A stretch of DNA of 64,000 nt. Source: an uncultured Poribacteria bacterium (GTDB taxonomy: Bacteria > Poribacteria > WGA-4E > PCPOR2b). Below the pieces are notes generated by a model. The model saw only the letters and a program-made list of their open reading frames with translations. It was not told the origin of the DNA and did not search any database. The stretch spans positions 3,567,623 to 3,631,622 of the forward strand of contig OY282444.1 in assembly GCA_958296125.1 (NCBI GenBank). Reading direction: 5' to 3'. Positions 21,249 through 27,693 of this stretch are shown here, in pieces (position 1 is the first letter of the stretch; each line of letters begins with the position of its first letter). A program made the translations under genes and the position numbers.

Positions 21249-23918
21249 TTATTTTAAGATGATCATTCGTTTAACAGAGGTGAAGTCGCCAGCTTGTAGT
21301 TGGTAGAAGTAGAGACCACTACTGACCAACTCACCCCGTCCGTTGCGACCGTCCCAATAAGCTGCCCGCTTTTTGGCGAGATATGAGCCAGCGGCTTGAT
21401 TGCCTAACGAAATTGTGCGTATCCGTTCACCTAATGGATTGTAGATGATGATAGATACATTCGCATCAGAGGCGAGTTGATATGGAATCCACGTCTCAGG
21501 ATTGAATGGATTTGGGTAATTCTGAAGCAGCTGGGTGTGCATCGGGGCAATGCTATCGAAGGTTAGGTGAAGGGTTGTATATGCTTTCCGAATATCATCG
21601 GATGTGATGGCATAGTCTGTCTTGCCGATAGGTTTACCTGAAGTGATATCGGTAAGCGTCAAACGCAACGTATCGCCAACTTGGACGATTGGAGTTCGAC
21701 TCAAATCAGCATAGCCTAAAGTAAATCTACCCCCTGCTTCCGCTAATCCTTCTGTCAACCGATTACCTGTCCTGAGATTGTCAACGGTAATTTGGTAATC
21801 CCGTTCCTTGATCGGAGCATCTCTGCCTAGAACCCCATCAACGACGAATGCCCAAAGCGTTCCGCTGACAGGGGGTGCGCTCGCTGATCCAGCAGCTTGC
21901 GTCGAATCGGAATCGTCCCAAGGTTCTCCTGTGAATGTGACCGCCCCTCCTTCCGGCGTATTGACAATATACCCCCGTGCCCCTTCAATCGGAAATCCAT
22001 CCCCGGGTGTTGCGTTGGTATGAGATATGAACTCCCCATCCTCCGAAGCCGCGATAATCACCGTCGATCCGACCATTTCCATAAAGCTGCGCGCTGTCAG
22101 CGGCGTTGGTGGACGGAGCGGCGGTGAGATAATATTTAATCCCTTATTTAAGAGCAGTGTAAAAATGAATTCTTCGGTATCATCTGTGCTGGGCAGCTTA
22201 ATGTCTTCAGGTGAACCATCAAGGGTGCTCACCATCGTTGCCAAGTTGTTTGCAGCCCGATGAAAGAAAGGGGGCCAGAAACGTCTGACAGCCTCCACCT
22301 TGTCGATCTCGTCAGGAGTGGGTCCCTCCTCACCCATGGCAAGCAGGATAAACGCGGTCCGAAAGTCCTTCTGAGCGGATTCAGCATCGGGGATTCGCGC
22401 CCCGTTTACCGAAATAATATCTTCAATTTGTATTACTTGCTTTTCCCCCCGAAAACTAACGTCTCCCAAGGGATTCCGGTATCGTAGATCATTTGAAAAG
22501 ATAAACTGTTCATCATAAGGGGGTGGGATGTCCAAATCATAGGGGTCAGCCACCAAGAAGGTCGGGGGAACCTCCTCTGGCTTTAGCAACCCCATCAGAT
22601 ATAAATCGAGCGGGCTATAAAGATCTTTTGGAGCCAAGGTAGTAAAAGTGCCATCCCCGTTATCTTGGATATCATTGCCGCCCATAACAGACCCACTGGT
22701 ATGCAGGAAAAAACTCCAATGTGCAAAATCCCGACCTAACAAATCGCGTGGATCGATGTAAGCCAGCCACCGATGCCCAAATTCGTGCGTGAGCACACTC
22801 AGTGTGGATGTCGCTGGGCCAAAAGTATTTTCCAAGGGATCATCCTCCCACACCTTCAAGTTTTTCATAGCGAGGAAGGTGCTTAGCTTGCCCTGGCTGC
22901 CGTAAGCGGCGGTATCATCAAATTGTGGAAAGATTTCTCCTCTGTTTGGGTTGCCAATGCCTAAAACATCGTTCTGGACGGAAATAGCAAAGGCGAGGAT
23001 CCCGACTTGGTCTAGGTTCGATTCAAAGTTAGTGAAGAGCACTAAGCTATCAAAATCGTCGCGATGCGTCTGGTAGAATTCACGAGCAACATTCTGTAGG
23101 TTGACCGTTGGTAGATCTACGAAAACTTCTGCAATGGCACCTGTTGTCCCTTCAAGCGGCAAATTGTCCGAGTAGTCCACCAAATTTACTTGAAAGGCAT
23201 CGTTGAGTCCGCCGGGGGCTATTCCAACAATACCTGTTCTTATATCAGACTTTTCAAAAACGATGTTAATGATGCCTGTATCGAACAGGACCACCTGCAT
23301 TGTAATAGCCTCTCCACCAAAGGAGGATTGGCTGAACGCATCAACATCGAACCAAGTGACGGTAACTTGTCTAGCGGATCGCTTTACCTCAACGGTTGCG
23401 CCGGAGAACGGATTCAGGTCAGTGTACAACACACCGATGCGAGGGGCCTCTCCCAAAAATCTTCGCAAGTCCCGCGCCTGTGAAGCAGCATCCCCTTTGC
23501 CGAATGTTAAATTCCCGTCTGAATTGACAAAAACTTCGGTATGTTCCTCACCAAAAAATGGGAAATCGAACCCGATATCGATCTTCTTACTGTCGTCATC
23601 ATTCAGATTCAATACATTCCCGAAGGCTTCGACAAACTCAACCGCTTCTGGCATAGATACATCGTATCCGCCCAGGTCATTAGGCGTGAAACGTAACCCT
23701 CCCCCCGCTAAATCGAAAGCGTTCTTCGGTTGGACAATGTGCTCGTTGCCATTGATGACAACCACATTTCCCACCTCAGTAGATGTTGATTCAAAGGTGA
23801 CGGTTTGTGCCGTGTTTACCTGTAGCCTTTGATATGGTGCATCACCAGATTTGGCTTGGGCTTCTAGAGAAAAGATAATCAACAGTGTAGCCGTGAAAAC
23901 TGGCAATTTTCGTATCAT
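21249..23918 (-). CDS. Secreted nidogen-domain metalloprotease with FlgD-like sorting tail
   Basis: Start set at ATG 23918 with AGGAAG upstream and a clear signal peptide ending A-Q-A at residue 22; the frame is open to 23993. Residues about 110-250 resemble a NIDO domain (F-F-G-E-E-H-T-E-V-F-V-N-S-D-G-N-L-T-F, then T-V-T-W-F-D-V-D-A). A zincin helix H-E-F-G-H lies at 378-382, followed by W-L-A-Y. The C-terminal 90 residues form a FlgD-like/type IX-style domain beginning N-Y-P-N-P-F-N-P-E-T near 790 and ending in Y-Q-L-x-A-G-D-F-x-x-x-K-R-M-x-x-L-K. It should be exported and anchored or released outside. Target proteins unknown. Confidence 0.82.
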   Translation of the reverse strand: MIRKLPVFTATLLIIFSLEAQAKSGDAPYQRLQVNTAQTVTFESTSTEVGNVVVINGNEHIVQPKNAFDLAGGGLRFTPNDLGGYDVSMPEAVEFVEAFGNVLNLNDDDSKKIDIGFDFPFFGEEHTEVFVNSDGNLTFGKGDAASQARDLRRFLGEAPRIGVLYTDLNPFSGATVEVKRSARQVTVTWFDVDAFSQSSFGGEAITMQVVLFDTGIINIVFEKSDIRTGIVGIAPGGLNDAFQVNLVDYSDNLPLEGTTGAIAEVFVDLPTVNLQNVAREFYQTHRDDFDSLVLFTNFESNLDQVGILAFAISVQNDVLGIGNPNRGEIFPQFDDTAAYGSQGKLSTFLAMKNLKVWEDDPLENTFGPATSTLSVLTHEFGHRWLAYIDPRDLLGRDFAHWSFFLHTSGSVMGGNDIQDNGDGTFTTLAPKDLYSPLDLYLMGLLKPEEVPPTFLVADPYDLDIPPPYDEQFIFSNDLRYRNPLGDVSFRGEKQVIQIEDIISVNGARIPDAESAQKDFRTAFILLAMGEEGPTPDEIDKVEAVRRFWPPFFHRAANNLATMVSTLDGSPEDIKLPSTDDTEEFIFTLLLNKGLNIISPPLRPPTPLTARSFMEMVGSTVIIAASEDGEFISHTNATPGDGFPIEGARGYIVNTPEGGAVTFTGEPWDDSDSTQAAGSASAPPVSGTLWAFVVDGVLGRDAPIKERDYQITVDNLRTGNRLTEGLAEAGGRFTLGYADLSRTPIVQVGDTLRLTLTDITSGKPIGKTDYAITSDDIRKAYTTLHLTFDSIAPMHTQLLQNYPNPFNPETWIPYQLASDANVSIIIYNPLGERIRTISLGNQAAGSYLAKKRAAYWDGRNGRGELVSSGLYFYQLQAGDFTSVKRMIILK

Positions 23919-23960
23919 AAAATGGCTTCCTAATAAAATTATGCCGGCTCGCGTCAAAAG

Positions 23961-23998
23961 AAAGTGCAACGCGCGTGCACGATTTCTTAACATGAACC
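23961..23998. repeat. Dispersed repeat, family A copy 2
   Basis: Contains GTGCACGATTTCTTAACATG continuing into AACC, as at 10702-10748, and an inner GTGCAACGCGCGTGCAC palindrome. It lies in the 93-bp gap between the cupredoxin and metalloprotease genes, which suggests a transcription boundary there. Confidence 0.6.
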
Positions 23999-24011: not shown

Positions 24012-24392
24012 TTATTCGACTATCACTTTGCCCACCATCATGCGGGGATGAAACGGGCATGTATAGGTAAATATCCCCTCACGATCCGCAGTGAAGTTAA
24101 GCGTTTCAGCCTCACCGGGTTCTAGGAGCTGTGTTTTCACTCTCAATGCCGAGATCTCGAAATCGTGATACACGCCCGACTCTTCCTCATTTTTCACAGT
24201 GAGCTGAATCGTTTGACCTTTTTTAATCACAATAGGTGGGTTATTTTCGTTGAAACTCATTTCCCTAGCGATGACCTCAATATTAACGGGGGGCAAGCTA
24301 TCGGAGACCTTGCTGGAACTGAACGCCCATAAAACCCCCCCGGCTACCACTGCTATTACTGCTAAAACTACGAGATAAATAATCCTTCTCAT
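24012..24392 (-). CDS. Membrane-anchored cupredoxin
   Basis: A 126-residue protein with one N-terminal membrane segment (residues 4-24) and a periplasmic plastocyanin-like fold. Type 1 copper ligands can be read as His76 (V-Y-H-D-F), Cys112 and His115 (T-C-P-F-H), with Met118 or Met119 as axial ligand. It should carry electrons one at a time. It is the last gene of the operon with a DtxR-type regulator, multicopper oxidase and ZIP transporter, and starts 21 bp after the ZIP gene behind AAAGGAG. It is the likely electron partner of the oxidase, by context only. Confidence 0.88.
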   Translation of the reverse strand: MRRIIYLVVLAVIAVVAGGVLWAFSSSKVSDSLPPVNIEVIAREMSFNENNPPIVIKKGQTIQLTVKNEEESGVYHDFEISALRVKTQLLEPGEAETLNFTADREGIFTYTCPFHPRMMVGKVIVE

Positions 24393-24413
24393 CTGATATG
24401 CTCCTTTGCCATT

Positions 24414-25667
24414 TTATGCCGCCACGAATAAACCTGTCAGATACATGATTAATAAGCCGGCTAAAAAGCCAGCCACGTTTGAAAAAGAAACCAATGATTG
24501 AACGGATTGAGCCGCCATTCCTTTAACAATCTGATAGCCGACCTGGAAGAGGGCCCCGGCACCGATTGCCAAAAACAGCACCGACCAGACATCAGAATAT
24601 GTAAACCCGCCCACCCATGTGCCGATTATGGTGGGTCCGCCTGCCAGGAGTCCCATCCAGACCAGATGGATCCATTTGAACTTCGAGCGGGTTATGGGAA
24701 TGACAATGGCGACACCTTCCGTGATGTTATGAATGGTAAACCCCAGGACTAACAACGTTCCCACCGCTATCTCCCCCACGGCATAAGCGGCACCGATGGC
24801 AAGCCCTTCGCCGAGGTTATGGACACCGATGCCAAATGCAACGAGATAAGCTAAGACCAACGCGCTGTATGATTCGCCGCTTTGTGCGGAGGCAGCTCTA
24901 GCGTACCGGCTAATGGCAGTGAGTATGAGGATAGTCAAAAGCAAACCGATGGTGATAATCGCTACCCCCTGGTAGGAGCTGGGCACCCTTTCACTCAACT
25001 CGATGGACTCGACAAATGTGTCAATACCTAAAAAGACCAGCAATCCCACAGTTAAGCTGATCAAAAAGTCAAACCAGCCGCCGGATAGCTGTCTCAGAAA
25101 AGGAAACCATAAAAGCCCAAGACAAACCGGTATAACCCCTACATAAATGCCAAGCATCGCAAAAGTTGCAAAGAGTGCTAGCGACGGACGAGGCGATAGC
25201 ACTGCAACTGGAATTTCACCACTGAAGGTGAGACCGGTGCGTGTTATCAAGGTCACTTCGTGCATTTCATCTTTGACCCAGGGATAGGAAAACGTGATGG
25301 TTGCCTTTTCAAGGTGTTTGAGCGTGCTGCTCGGCTCGATAGTAATATCCCTCCAGATTGCATCGTCAACCGTGGCTTGAGCTATCGTGACGGGACTGGG
25401 GCCATCGTTGACCACATGGACGACAATCTTACCGGGTTCTGGCAAAACGATGCGCTGGATATTCAACTCCTCAACGGGCGGAAAAACGTCTTGGAAGGTC
25501 CCTAAAGTCCCGTTAACGATAAGGTATAGCAAAATGCCAAGCAAGATAATCGGCAGAATCGCGCTGAGCCAAATTGGTATCCGAAACCGATCGCTTGAAT
25601 CGGAATCGGGCGGTTCTCCGTTCCGAGAGTGGGCAGGGTGTGAACTGTTTTTATCAAGATTAGACAT
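24414..25667 (-). CDS. ZIP-family metal transporter with N-terminal periplasmic domain
   Basis: A 417-residue membrane protein. Residues 30-50 form a first helix, then a beta-rich domain of about 100 residues (G-K-I-V-V-H-V-V-N-D-G-P-S-P-V-T-I) and eight helices from about 160. Two ZIP metal sites are clear: H-N-L-G-E-G and H-N-I-T-E-G, about 30 residues apart. ZIP proteins take up Zn2+, Fe2+ or Mn2+ toward the cytoplasm. The extra beta domain is unusual for a bacterial ZIP. The gene overlaps the multicopper oxidase gene by 8 bp, with AAAGGAGG inside that gene, so the two are translated together. Confidence 0.85.
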   Translation of the reverse strand: MSNLDKNSSHPAHSRNGEPPDSDSSDRFRIPIWLSAILPIILLGILLYLIVNGTLGTFQDVFPPVEELNIQRIVLPEPGKIVVHVVNDGPSPVTIAQATVDDAIWRDITIEPSSTLKHLEKATITFSYPWVKDEMHEVTLITRTGLTFSGEIPVAVLSPRPSLALFATFAMLGIYVGVIPVCLGLLWFPFLRQLSGGWFDFLISLTVGLLVFLGIDTFVESIELSERVPSSYQGVAIITIGLLLTILILTAISRYARAASAQSGESYSALVLAYLVAFGIGVHNLGEGLAIGAAYAVGEIAVGTLLVLGFTIHNITEGVAIVIPITRSKFKWIHLVWMGLLAGGPTIIGTWVGGFTYSDVWSVLFLAIGAGALFQVGYQIVKGMAAQSVQSLVSFSNVAGFLAGLLIMYLTGLFVAA

Positions 25668-26796
25668 GGGTTTCCTCCTTTACGTCGAAGAAGCCCATCC
25701 AACCCAATTCGGCAAACTCGGCTTGATGTGCGTGAAACATGAACATACCAGGGTAATTATAAACAAATTCCACGACGCACCGCTCGCCCTGACAGAGCAT
25801 GACGGTGTCCGTAAACTCATAAAAATCGAGGTCCGTGCCTGTGCGGAAGAGCTTGAAGAAACCGGCATGGATGTGAAGTGAATTGATTAGGTCAAATTCC
25901 AACACGTTGACGAGATATATCCGGACTAACTCCCCGACTTTAATCGGGATGGGATGATCTTGATAATAGAACCCGACTGTATTTACCGCATAAAATTCAT
26001 TCTCGGCATCGAAGTTCGTATCAAAGCCGTTCATCACCATGACCAACTCTTTGGCCTCCGGGCGGTGCTGCTTGGGATCGATAATAAATGCCCCATAAAG
26101 TCCTTTATGGAGGTGACGCTTCAAAGGTGTTGTATGACAGTGATAAAGTTGCAATCCAAAAGGCTCCGCGTCAAACTCATAGGTGTAGCTGGCTCCGGGT
26201 GGAATCTGCTCAAAAACGCCATCCATATTTGCAGGGTGGAATCCGTGAAAATGGATGGTGTGCGGATGAGTTGCGTTGTTCTTAAAATAGACGCGAAGGC
26301 GATCGCCCTCTGTACAGCGCAACGTCGGCCCAGGCACGGTGCCATTATATGTCCACGCCGGAAACATGACACCGGGGGCAATCTCTATCTCCTTTTCTAT
26401 AGCGGTTATATTATATTCTCTCAGGGTTCTGCCATCTGGAAGCGTGCTCACTTTGCCGTAGTCGAAGTGAGTGAGATATTTGTTTGGGTTAAATCCGTCA
26501 GAGGTTGTCTCCCCGATAGAGCCGAACATACCAGCTTGGCCATGCCCCGGACCTCCCATACTCATATCCGTTGGCTCTAACGAATTAGACGGAGATTTTA
26601 CATTTTCTTGAGCACGACTTGCACCAATAATCGCTCCAGTGGCAGTAAGCCCAGTCGCTCCTACCGCACTCGTCTTTAGAAAATCACGCCTTGATAAACG
26701 TGCCTTACTTTTCTGTGGGATTCCCTTACTCGACTCCTCCATAGAGTTTGGAGAAGTTTCTTCTTGAGGGAATGTTCGTGTTTTTTTGTCTTCCAT
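25660..26796 (-). CDS. Tat-exported two-domain multicopper oxidase
   Basis: A 378-residue protein with a twin-arginine signal (S-R-R-D-F-L-K, residues 35-41) and two cupredoxin domains. Copper ligands fall at His177/His179/His182/His184 (H-P-H-T-I-H-F-H-G), His219-Cys220-His221 with His228 and His230, His308/His310 (L-H-I-H-A-G) and His355/His357 with Met367. This holds type 1, 2 and 3 ligand sets and matches two-domain oxidases and NirK-like proteins; the trinuclear His pairs favour an oxidase over nitrite reductase. Coupling with a DtxR regulator and ZIP importer suggests a metallo-oxidase acting on Fe2+ or Mn2+. The start shares its A with the stop of the regulator gene (TAATG). Confidence 0.87.
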   Translation of the reverse strand: MEDKKTRTFPQEETSPNSMEESSKGIPQKSKARLSRRDFLKTSAVGATGLTATGAIIGASRAQENVKSPSNSLEPTDMSMGGPGHGQAGMFGSIGETTSDGFNPNKYLTHFDYGKVSTLPDGRTLREYNITAIEKEIEIAPGVMFPAWTYNGTVPGPTLRCTEGDRLRVYFKNNATHPHTIHFHGFHPANMDGVFEQIPPGASYTYEFDAEPFGLQLYHCHTTPLKRHLHKGLYGAFIIDPKQHRPEAKELVMVMNGFDTNFDAENEFYAVNTVGFYYQDHPIPIKVGELVRIYLVNVLEFDLINSLHIHAGFFKLFRTGTDLDFYEFTDTVMLCQGERCVVEFVYNYPGMFMFHAHQAEFAELGWMGFFDVKEETHV

Positions 26797-27464
26797 TAAT
26801 TTGCTTCCTTTCCAGGGGCGGCTACAAATACGTTTCCTGCGACTTCGCGACTGACAAAATGTTCGGTCTGGTCAATCCTCAAACGCAACGGCCCATTAAA
26901 CGGTTCTTTTGACACAACTTGGATGACGGTGCTCGGCAGGATGCCCAGCTGATCGAGGTAACGCAGCATCTCGGGATCATTATCATTGACATGCTGAACG
27001 GTGGCAGAACTCCCCGCATCAACTTTTGTTAGCGTTTCATAAGCAACCTCTTGGAGTGCGCCATCCTTTGCTGGGATGGCGTGTCCGTGGGGGTCGGTGG
27101 TGGGATGCCCCAACGCCTCGCTCATCCGTTCCTCAAACTCCTCGGAAATAACATGTTCCAGTTTATCCGCCTCATCATGCACTTTGTCCCAAGTAAATCC
27201 CATGATTTCAACGAGATAAAGTTCTAGTAACCGATGATGGCGAATAATTTCTTGAGCGATTTTTTTCCCACCTTCTGTCAATTCAACGCCGTGATAGGAG
27301 GCGTAATTCAGCAATCCCATCGCTGCCAACTTGCGGATCATACCGGTGACCGATGCGGCAGAAACATCCATTTGCTGAGCTATAGCAGAGGTAGAGACTT
27401 TCTTCTGACCTTCTTGCAGCAAGTAGACTGTCTTCAGATAATCTTCCATCGCATGAGTTATCAT
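26796..27464 (-). CDS. DtxR/IdeR-type metal-dependent repressor
   Basis: A 222-residue regulator, the length of the three-domain iron type and longer than MntR. The N-terminal winged helix is clear (V-S-T-S-A-I-A-Q-Q-M-D-V-S-A-A-S-V-T near 23-40). The metal-binding and dimer domain contains E-I-I-R-H-H-R-L-L-E and the D-E-A-D-K-L-E-H-V-I-S-E motif with metal-ligand Glu and His. The C-terminal 75 residues form an SH3-like FeoA domain. It would sense Fe2+ or Mn2+ and repress. A perfect inverted repeat lies 23 bp before its start, so it probably controls itself and the oxidase, ZIP and cupredoxin genes that follow. Confidence 0.9.
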   Translation of the reverse strand: MITHAMEDYLKTVYLLQEGQKKVSTSAIAQQMDVSAASVTGMIRKLAAMGLLNYASYHGVELTEGGKKIAQEIIRHHRLLELYLVEIMGFTWDKVHDEADKLEHVISEEFEERMSEALGHPTTDPHGHAIPAKDGALQEVAYETLTKVDAGSSATVQHVNDNDPEMLRYLDQLGILPSTVIQVVSKEPFNGPLRLRIDQTEHFVSREVAGNVFVAAPGKEAN

Positions 27465-27486
27465 TCTTGACCATCCAAAAATTATA

Positions 27487-27502
27487 TTTAGGTACTCCTA
27501 AA
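27487..27502. promoter_or_regulatory. Inverted-repeat operator for the DtxR-type regulator
   Basis: The perfect palindrome TTTAGG-TACT-CCTAAA lies 23 bp upstream of the regulator start. TTAGG/CCTAA arms are the usual core of DtxR, IdeR and SirR operators. A second imperfect pair (AACC ... GGGGTT) lies at 27522-27540. The A+T-rich DNA between them is the likely promoter, so binding would block transcription of the four-gene operon. Confidence 0.7.
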
Positions 27503-27693
27503 TTTTTAATTAGTATATGATAACCTATTTTTTAGGGGTTGTCAATTTTATTTTTCGGGGAGAGTCAGGGTAGGAGGAAAGCAGGTGTGGAGTGAATCAC
27601 AGGCTAGAGTAGGAACGATATCTGACACTTTCTGAATCAATTCTTCCCAATACGTCCACATAAATATTTGGACAGATCCACAGTTTTGTGATA

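Follow-up and report, generated by a model that had tools for sequence, protein, structure and literature searches.

In yeast, the multicopper oxidase (MCO) Fet3 stands beside the membrane importer Ftr1. In most genomes of ammonia-oxidising archaea (AOA), a ZIP-family gene adjoins that of the oxidase MCO1 (PMC5767755), placing a two-domain MCO directly beside a zinc/iron permease (NVIE_000600/NVIE_000590; Kerou 2016, Reyes 2020); for this pair, oxidation of Cu(I) followed by import of Cu(II) has been proposed (PMC7785015; PMC7819960). On the regulatory side, DR2539 of Deinococcus radiodurans acts as a repressor of the Nramp gene dr1709 (mntH) when either Mn(II) or Fe(II) is present. This repression requires an inverted repeat, and responses to Ni, Cu and Zn are not mediated by DR2539 (PMC3327659). 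Here we describe a minus-strand locus from an uncultured Poribacteria bacterium, contained in a stretch of 64,000 nucleotides (contig OY282444.1; this whole stretch is called the window), which encodes a DtxR-type regulator, an MCO exported by the twin-arginine translocation (Tat) system, a ZIP transporter and a cupredoxin. Conserved pairing, overlapping genes and mirrored phylogenies support the view that the MCO and the ZIP are a co-evolving pair and a real functional unit. Because this pair spans many bacterial phyla and some archaea, usually behind an operator that also controls Mn importers, we read it as an uncharacterised Mn/Fe-type uptake module and not as a one-off operon.

Open reading frames, domain matches and the ZIP fold bear out the four families that an earlier note had assigned to the locus, although the interval it gave (25660–27502) holds only the operator, the regulator and the MCO, with the ZIP and cupredoxin genes lying outside it at 24012–25667. 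A putative sigma-70-like promoter (TTGACA-17-TATCAT, 27517–27545, minus strand), recognised by its match to 11 of 12 consensus positions, is followed immediately past its -10 element by a perfect TTTAGG-CCTAAA palindrome, TTTAGGTACTCCTAAA, at 27487–27502, just as the note had described. The genes for the regulator (26796–27464), the MCO (25660–26796), the ZIP (24414–25667) and the cupredoxin (24012–24392) follow on the minus strand. Regulator and MCO overlap as TAATG and MCO and ZIP by 8 bp, both as previously read, and a gap of 21 bp separates ZIP from cupredoxin; from this spacing we infer that the four genes form one transcript. A search of the window's entire genome (5,156,246 bases) found exact TTTAGG-N4-CCTAAA in a single copy, at 27487–27502, and the regulator as the sole DtxR-family member, and hence no wider regulon there. 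With one operator site and one such regulator in its own genome, we turned to relatives for evidence on the metal.

Peptides from the ZIP β-domain were used as queries against 84,980 species genomes, which returned 44 relatives from Gemmatimonadota, Acidobacteria, Armatimonadota and ANGP1, Chloroflexi/Thermomicrobiales, Poribacteria, Planctomycetota, Bipolaricaulota and Halobacteria. An MCO gene lies upstream of the ZIP gene on the same strand at all 44 loci and is directly adjacent in 43, the exception (L009) having a two-gene ABC transporter between them. Among the 60 measurable MCO/ZIP junctions, 32 overlap and 26 are spaced by 0–30 bp (58/60). Within 121 Gemmatimonadota genomes, ZIP and a close MCO (E ≤2e-129) occur in the identical 28, with adjacent coordinates in 28 of 28; five remoter oxidases (40–43% identity) occur without ZIP. 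The MCO and ZIP distance matrices correlate with r 0.79, where 999 permutations reach 0.25 at most. Since r includes shared species ancestry, this agreement supports joint inheritance and does not prove contact between the proteins.

The pair is patchily distributed, as ZIP was detected in only 3 of the 59 genomes searched (the window's own and 58 relatives). It also resides on plasmids: the ZIP occurs in 150 records, of which 74 have a conjugative type, and the MCO-ZIP pair is present at each of the 19 plasmid loci that were read (L051–L069), in hosts from Deinococcus, Actinomycetota, Bacillota, Alphaproteobacteria, cyanobacteria and Halobacteria. Pseudosulfitobacter contributes 37 of the 150 records, several of them from strains isolated with diatoms. 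No relative was found in the viral contigs searched.

A stricter form of the operator, TTWAGG-N4-CCTWAA, occurred at just 4 of 79 loci, and loosening the inner G/C to TTTAG-N6-CTAAA exposed a conserved element upstream of the relatives. In the 250 bp upstream of each operon's first gene, this degenerate motif is present exactly at 23 of 42 chromosomal loci and with at most one mismatch at 32 of 42, compared with 0.2 expected from first-order Markov shuffles; the operons bearing it include some without an adjacent DtxR gene. In the genomes of 12 relatives (~38 Mb), ten of the 14 motif occurrences lie at the MCO-ZIP operon. The regulator and operator logic proposed for the window is conserved in its relatives, and the operator is shared with Nramp genes. 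Among 29 motif loci sampled in Gemmatimonadota, nine precede Nramp or DtxR-Nramp genes and five MCO or DtxR-MCO genes, the others including nine membrane-anchored DtxR-FeoA proteins, two TonB receptors and one FeoAB. A tenth Nramp gene lies behind the motif in L080, a continuous DtxR-Nramp-MCO-ZIP run is found in L011 and a divergent DtxR-Nramp arrangement in L051, and in L022 and L055 an Nramp fragment remains immediately before the MCO. Four motif sites (L085, L105, L112 and L121) have no neighbouring metal gene and look like chance occurrences.

Some motif sites in Gemmatimonadota lead to other membrane proteins. In nine genomes (L113–L120 and L122), the exact motif, mostly as TTTAGGCAAGCCTAAA, precedes a DtxR-FeoA protein with an N-terminal extension resembling a membrane helix, which may be related to the regulator but bound to the membrane; none of these genomes has the MCO-ZIP pair. 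In two genomes (L084:331-1200 and L093:1529-2455), the motif lies near and upstream of the same outer-membrane β-barrel family (PF13557), possibly a metal channel of the outer membrane, and in two (L102 and L103) it stands ahead of genes for TonB-dependent receptors.

The regulator matches Fe_dep_repress (76.6 bits) and Fe_dep_repr_C (102.4 bits), both above cut-off, and carries a C-terminal FeoA/SH3-like domain (FeoA, 66 bits). Its metal-site residues are D8, K11, H77, D100, E103 and H104, of which D8 is found in 24/24 relatives, K11 in 20/24, Glu or Asp at position 100 in 25/25, and E103 and H104 in 25/25. D8 and the acidic D100 stand where iron-type DtxR proteins carry Met and Cys. The same pattern is seen in the Mn regulators ScaR and SloR, whereas the iron-type 7b25 has Met and Cys. 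According to the MntR/DtxR literature, exchange of Met/Cys for Asp/acidic residues moves DtxR specificity toward Mn, and the window protein has the Mn-type primary site, with Asp at the position of DtxR M10 and an acidic residue at that of C102. A strictly Mn-selective MntR of the B. subtilis type does not fit, as position 11 is Lys instead of Glu and NF003025 scores 76.7 bits against a cut-off of 138. DR2539 likewise has Lys replacing Glu11 (PMC3327659), and further shares with the window regulator Asp at MntR position 8, the acidic residue at the Cys102 position, the VHDEA motif and an inverted-repeat operator; its Nramp target matches the Nramp genes behind the motif in Gemmatimonadota. The two differ in that an MCO-ZIP target of DR2539 is not described (PMC3327659), whereas the window regulator heads an MCO-ZIP operon. 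Because its D8/K11/acidic-100 site matches that of DR2539, which represses mntH with either metal, we predict that the window protein, too, is a repressor that depends on Mn(II)/Fe(II). This DR2539-type site, together with an operator that also fronts Nramp genes, makes acquisition of Mn(II)/Fe(II) the most likely function of the operon.

The importer scores 34.1 bits against Pfam Zip, just below the cut-off of 35.1. An AlphaFold2 model built from 40 sequences (mean pLDDT 83) contains one N-terminal transmembrane helix (residues 32–61), an extracytoplasmic β-sandwich (65–155; strands 68–152, pLDDT ~90) and a ZIP core (163–416), supporting the extra periplasmic β-domain that had been noticed before. 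BbZIP is matched with Z 20.8 over 224–238 residues; its structures (5tsa, 8ght) share the ZIP core fold, with Z ~20, and are without the N-terminal sandwich. In the metal-site helices, H283, N284, E287, H313, N314 and E317 are invariant across 45 sequences. The modelled sandwich resembles the soluble domains of the archaellum stator proteins FlaF/FlaG (Z 12–12.8, root-mean-square deviation 1.4–1.9 over 87–92 residues), scoring well above general Ig-like matches (Z ~7–8), though a common fold proves no function. Its invariant residues include N87, G89, P90, Q97 and W130. As there is no His/Cys cluster among the invariant residues, the sandwich may be a docking domain and not a metal-binding one.

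The MCO matches Cu-oxidase_3 and Cu-oxidase_2 behind a Tat signal, and is made of two cupredoxin domains. Type-1 copper ligands (H179, C220 and H228, with axial L233) are present in domain 1 only, as are the HCH motif and its Cys, domain 2 having HAH without Cys, so the protein is a two-domain MCO with its type-1 site in domain 1. All eight trinuclear His residues are in place (H182, H184, H219, H221, H308, H310, H355 and H357), and both sets of ligands are near-invariant across 45 sequences. The closest solved structures, 7rab/7rac and 3gdc (E 3e-112 and 1e-108), are two-domain MCOs like that of the window, and our literature search gave no physiological role for them. We take 3gdc to come from Arthrobacter sp. 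FB24, whose plasmid 1 carries DtxR/MCO/ZIP and might encode it. A copper nitrite reductase was considered and is disfavoured: TIGR02376, the NirK equivalog, scores 90.5 bits, so far under its cut-off of 296.3 that an oxidase is likelier, and with the HCH and HxH trinuclear motifs intact, the active-site residues make a nitrite-reductase identity unlikely. The window's genome also encodes another, remotely related multicopper oxidase (31% identity; L002, 4778692-4779681).

When co-occurrence was checked across genomes, as the earlier note had suggested, the MCO and the ZIP with its β-domain proved near-invariant companions and the four-family set rare. A DtxR-family gene was counted by profile at 34 of 64 loci, upstream, downstream or divergent, and a cupredoxin at four: the window, two Planctomycetota contigs (L033 and L035) that repeat its four-gene order, and a Halorubrum plasmid (L062) with a plastocyanin-type protein in a similar order. 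Harmless, culturable bacteria that have both the pair and a DtxR include Rubrobacter marinus and Deinococcus sp. D7000. The four genes had been taken for a single regulated unit and their combination for one not known from any described bacterial system. With the cupredoxin at just 4/64 loci, the four-gene set was discarded as a conserved unit and its MCO-ZIP core retained, and with the recurrences just listed, the combination is not unique. The window cupredoxin (Cupredoxin_1) is membrane-anchored, with type-1 ligands H76, C112, H115 and M118/M119. In plasmids of Rhodococcus, Nocardia and Chroococcidiopsis, a Rieske protein directly follows the ZIP instead, and in Rubrobacter it stands one gene further on; such a redox protein is thus a dispensable partner, of different types in different lineages. 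On the same strand, about 18 bp past the cupredoxin stop (~93 bp if translation begins at a later Met), begins a gene for a large secreted protein (21249–23993) with a zincin-like HEFGH motif and a sorting tail of the FlgD-Ig/type IX secretion system type.

We propose that the operon encodes a divalent-metal acquisition module, repressed by a DtxR/MntR-type regulator with bound Mn(II)/Fe(II), in which the oxidase gates uptake at the ZIP. A shortage of Mn and/or Fe in the cell would release the repressor from TTTAG-N6-CTAAA just past the promoter and let the operon be expressed. The MCO, exported by Tat, would work beside the ZIP, probably docked on its periplasmic β-sandwich. There it may oxidise a reactive competing ion, Fe(II) and/or Cu(I) being the most plausible, at the mouth of the importer; the product would not be taken by the ZIP, leaving the transporter to import Mn(II). 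The cupredoxin, or the Rieske protein of other lineages, could serve as an optional electron-transfer partner. Support is good for the gene unit and for its Mn/Fe-type control, which we consider probable; the substrate of the oxidase and its docking are conjecture, and doubtful. As the whole statement combines these parts, we put it forward tentatively, as a real possibility.

Several points weigh against this proposal. That the MCO oxidises selectively is our own construction, and the sandwich on which it would dock has no invariant His/Cys cluster. Because ZIP-family transporters carry Zn, Fe, Mn, Co or Cd, the family does not fix the metal, and FeoAB and TonB receptors among the Gemmatimonadota motif targets suggest that iron may be no less important than Mn. 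The motif is missing from most plasmid loci (at most one mismatch in 3 of 19), so the control of these copies may differ, and some of them lie without DtxR in heavy-metal or copper clusters with P-type ATPases, cation diffusion facilitators (CDF) and ArsR/CadC. In Nitrososphaera viennensis, finally, copper limitation modestly induces both the MCO1 gene and the zinc/iron permease gene next to it (PMC7785015).

This archaeal response speaks for copper acquisition, in which the MCO would convert Cu(I) to Cu(II) for import by the ZIP. Besides the presence of the pair in most AOA (PMC5767755; PMC7819960), copper-handling genes near some plasmid copies agree with such a role. Archaeal MCO1 resembles the window MCO in a reported axial Leu at its type-1 site, like L233. 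However, the archaeal pair, which belongs to ammonia oxidisers and responds to copper limitation, is a putative counterpart of the bacterial one by its published description, the AOA papers report neither a DtxR nor a TTTAG-N6-CTAAA operator, and DtxR-type control by an operator held in common with Nramp points to Mn/Fe; we consider copper import unlikely. The same judgement applies to the iron uptake by the logic of Fet3/Ftr1 that the earlier note had favoured, with the MCO turning Fe(II) into Fe(III) and passing it to the ZIP. Overlapping co-expression with an importer, an MCO layout with a non-coordinating axial Leu at the type-1 site and a modelled periplasmic domain that could dock the oxidase are all compatible with it, as are FeoAB among the motif targets and the Fe(II) response of DR2539 (PMC3327659). 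Yet the resemblance to yeast is that of an MCO beside a membrane importer, and the differences are many: a ZIP by fold and Pfam in place of an Ftr1-type protein, a core retaining the usual divalent-metal residues, a two-domain instead of a three-domain oxidase, and Mn/Fe-type control. The analogy is disfavoured because the operator is shared mainly with Nramp, the metal site of the regulator is like those of DR2539, ScaR and SloR, and ZIPs carry divalent ions.

The plasmid records with their conjugative types, and P-type ATPases (11 loci), CDF (11) and ArsR (7) as neighbours of the pair, could instead point to metal tolerance, with an MCO that detoxifies periplasmic Cu(I)/Fe(II), a ZIP that brings in a counter-metal, and spread on resistance plasmids. 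But ZIPs are importers and the chromosomal copies mostly come with the motif or a DtxR gene and few resistance neighbours, and tolerance seems quite improbable. More remote still is an MCO that acts on nitrite, hydroxylamine or another substrate that is not a metal; it would be fed electrons by the cupredoxin or Rieske protein, and the ZIP would be merely co-regulated. Small redox proteins after the ZIP in several lineages and distant similarity to NirK speak for it, and hydroxylamine oxidation was once proposed for MCO1 (PMC5767755), but the low NirK score, the intact trinuclear motifs and the fact that redox partners are optional and the ZIP is not make it very improbable. Returning to the divalent-metal acquisition module, it may extend to a widespread, laterally mobile import system shared by two domains of life, whose secreted MCO docks on the FlaF/FlaG-like domain and whose copper-dependent oxidation of ions at the ZIP mouth selects the metal, chiefly Mn(II), under Mn/Fe starvation, an extension that we regard as speculative and somewhat unlikely.

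Although the adjacent MCO1-ZIP is already known in AOA, the bacterial pair with its Mn/Fe-type operator appears to be undescribed, and no description of it, of the operator or of the Nramp link was found in the literature searched, which included few subscription journals. Two-domain MCOs are common, and for most of them the role in the cell is obscure; that one family is nearly inseparable from a ZIP, often behind an operator shared with Nramp genes, gives it a concrete, testable one. An MCO-ZIP unit behind an Nramp-type operator also bears on the dispute over a copper or a hydroxylamine role of the archaeal pair. If our proposal is true, copper status would be tied to Mn/Fe uptake in bacteria, through a gene pair that resides on many conjugative plasmids.

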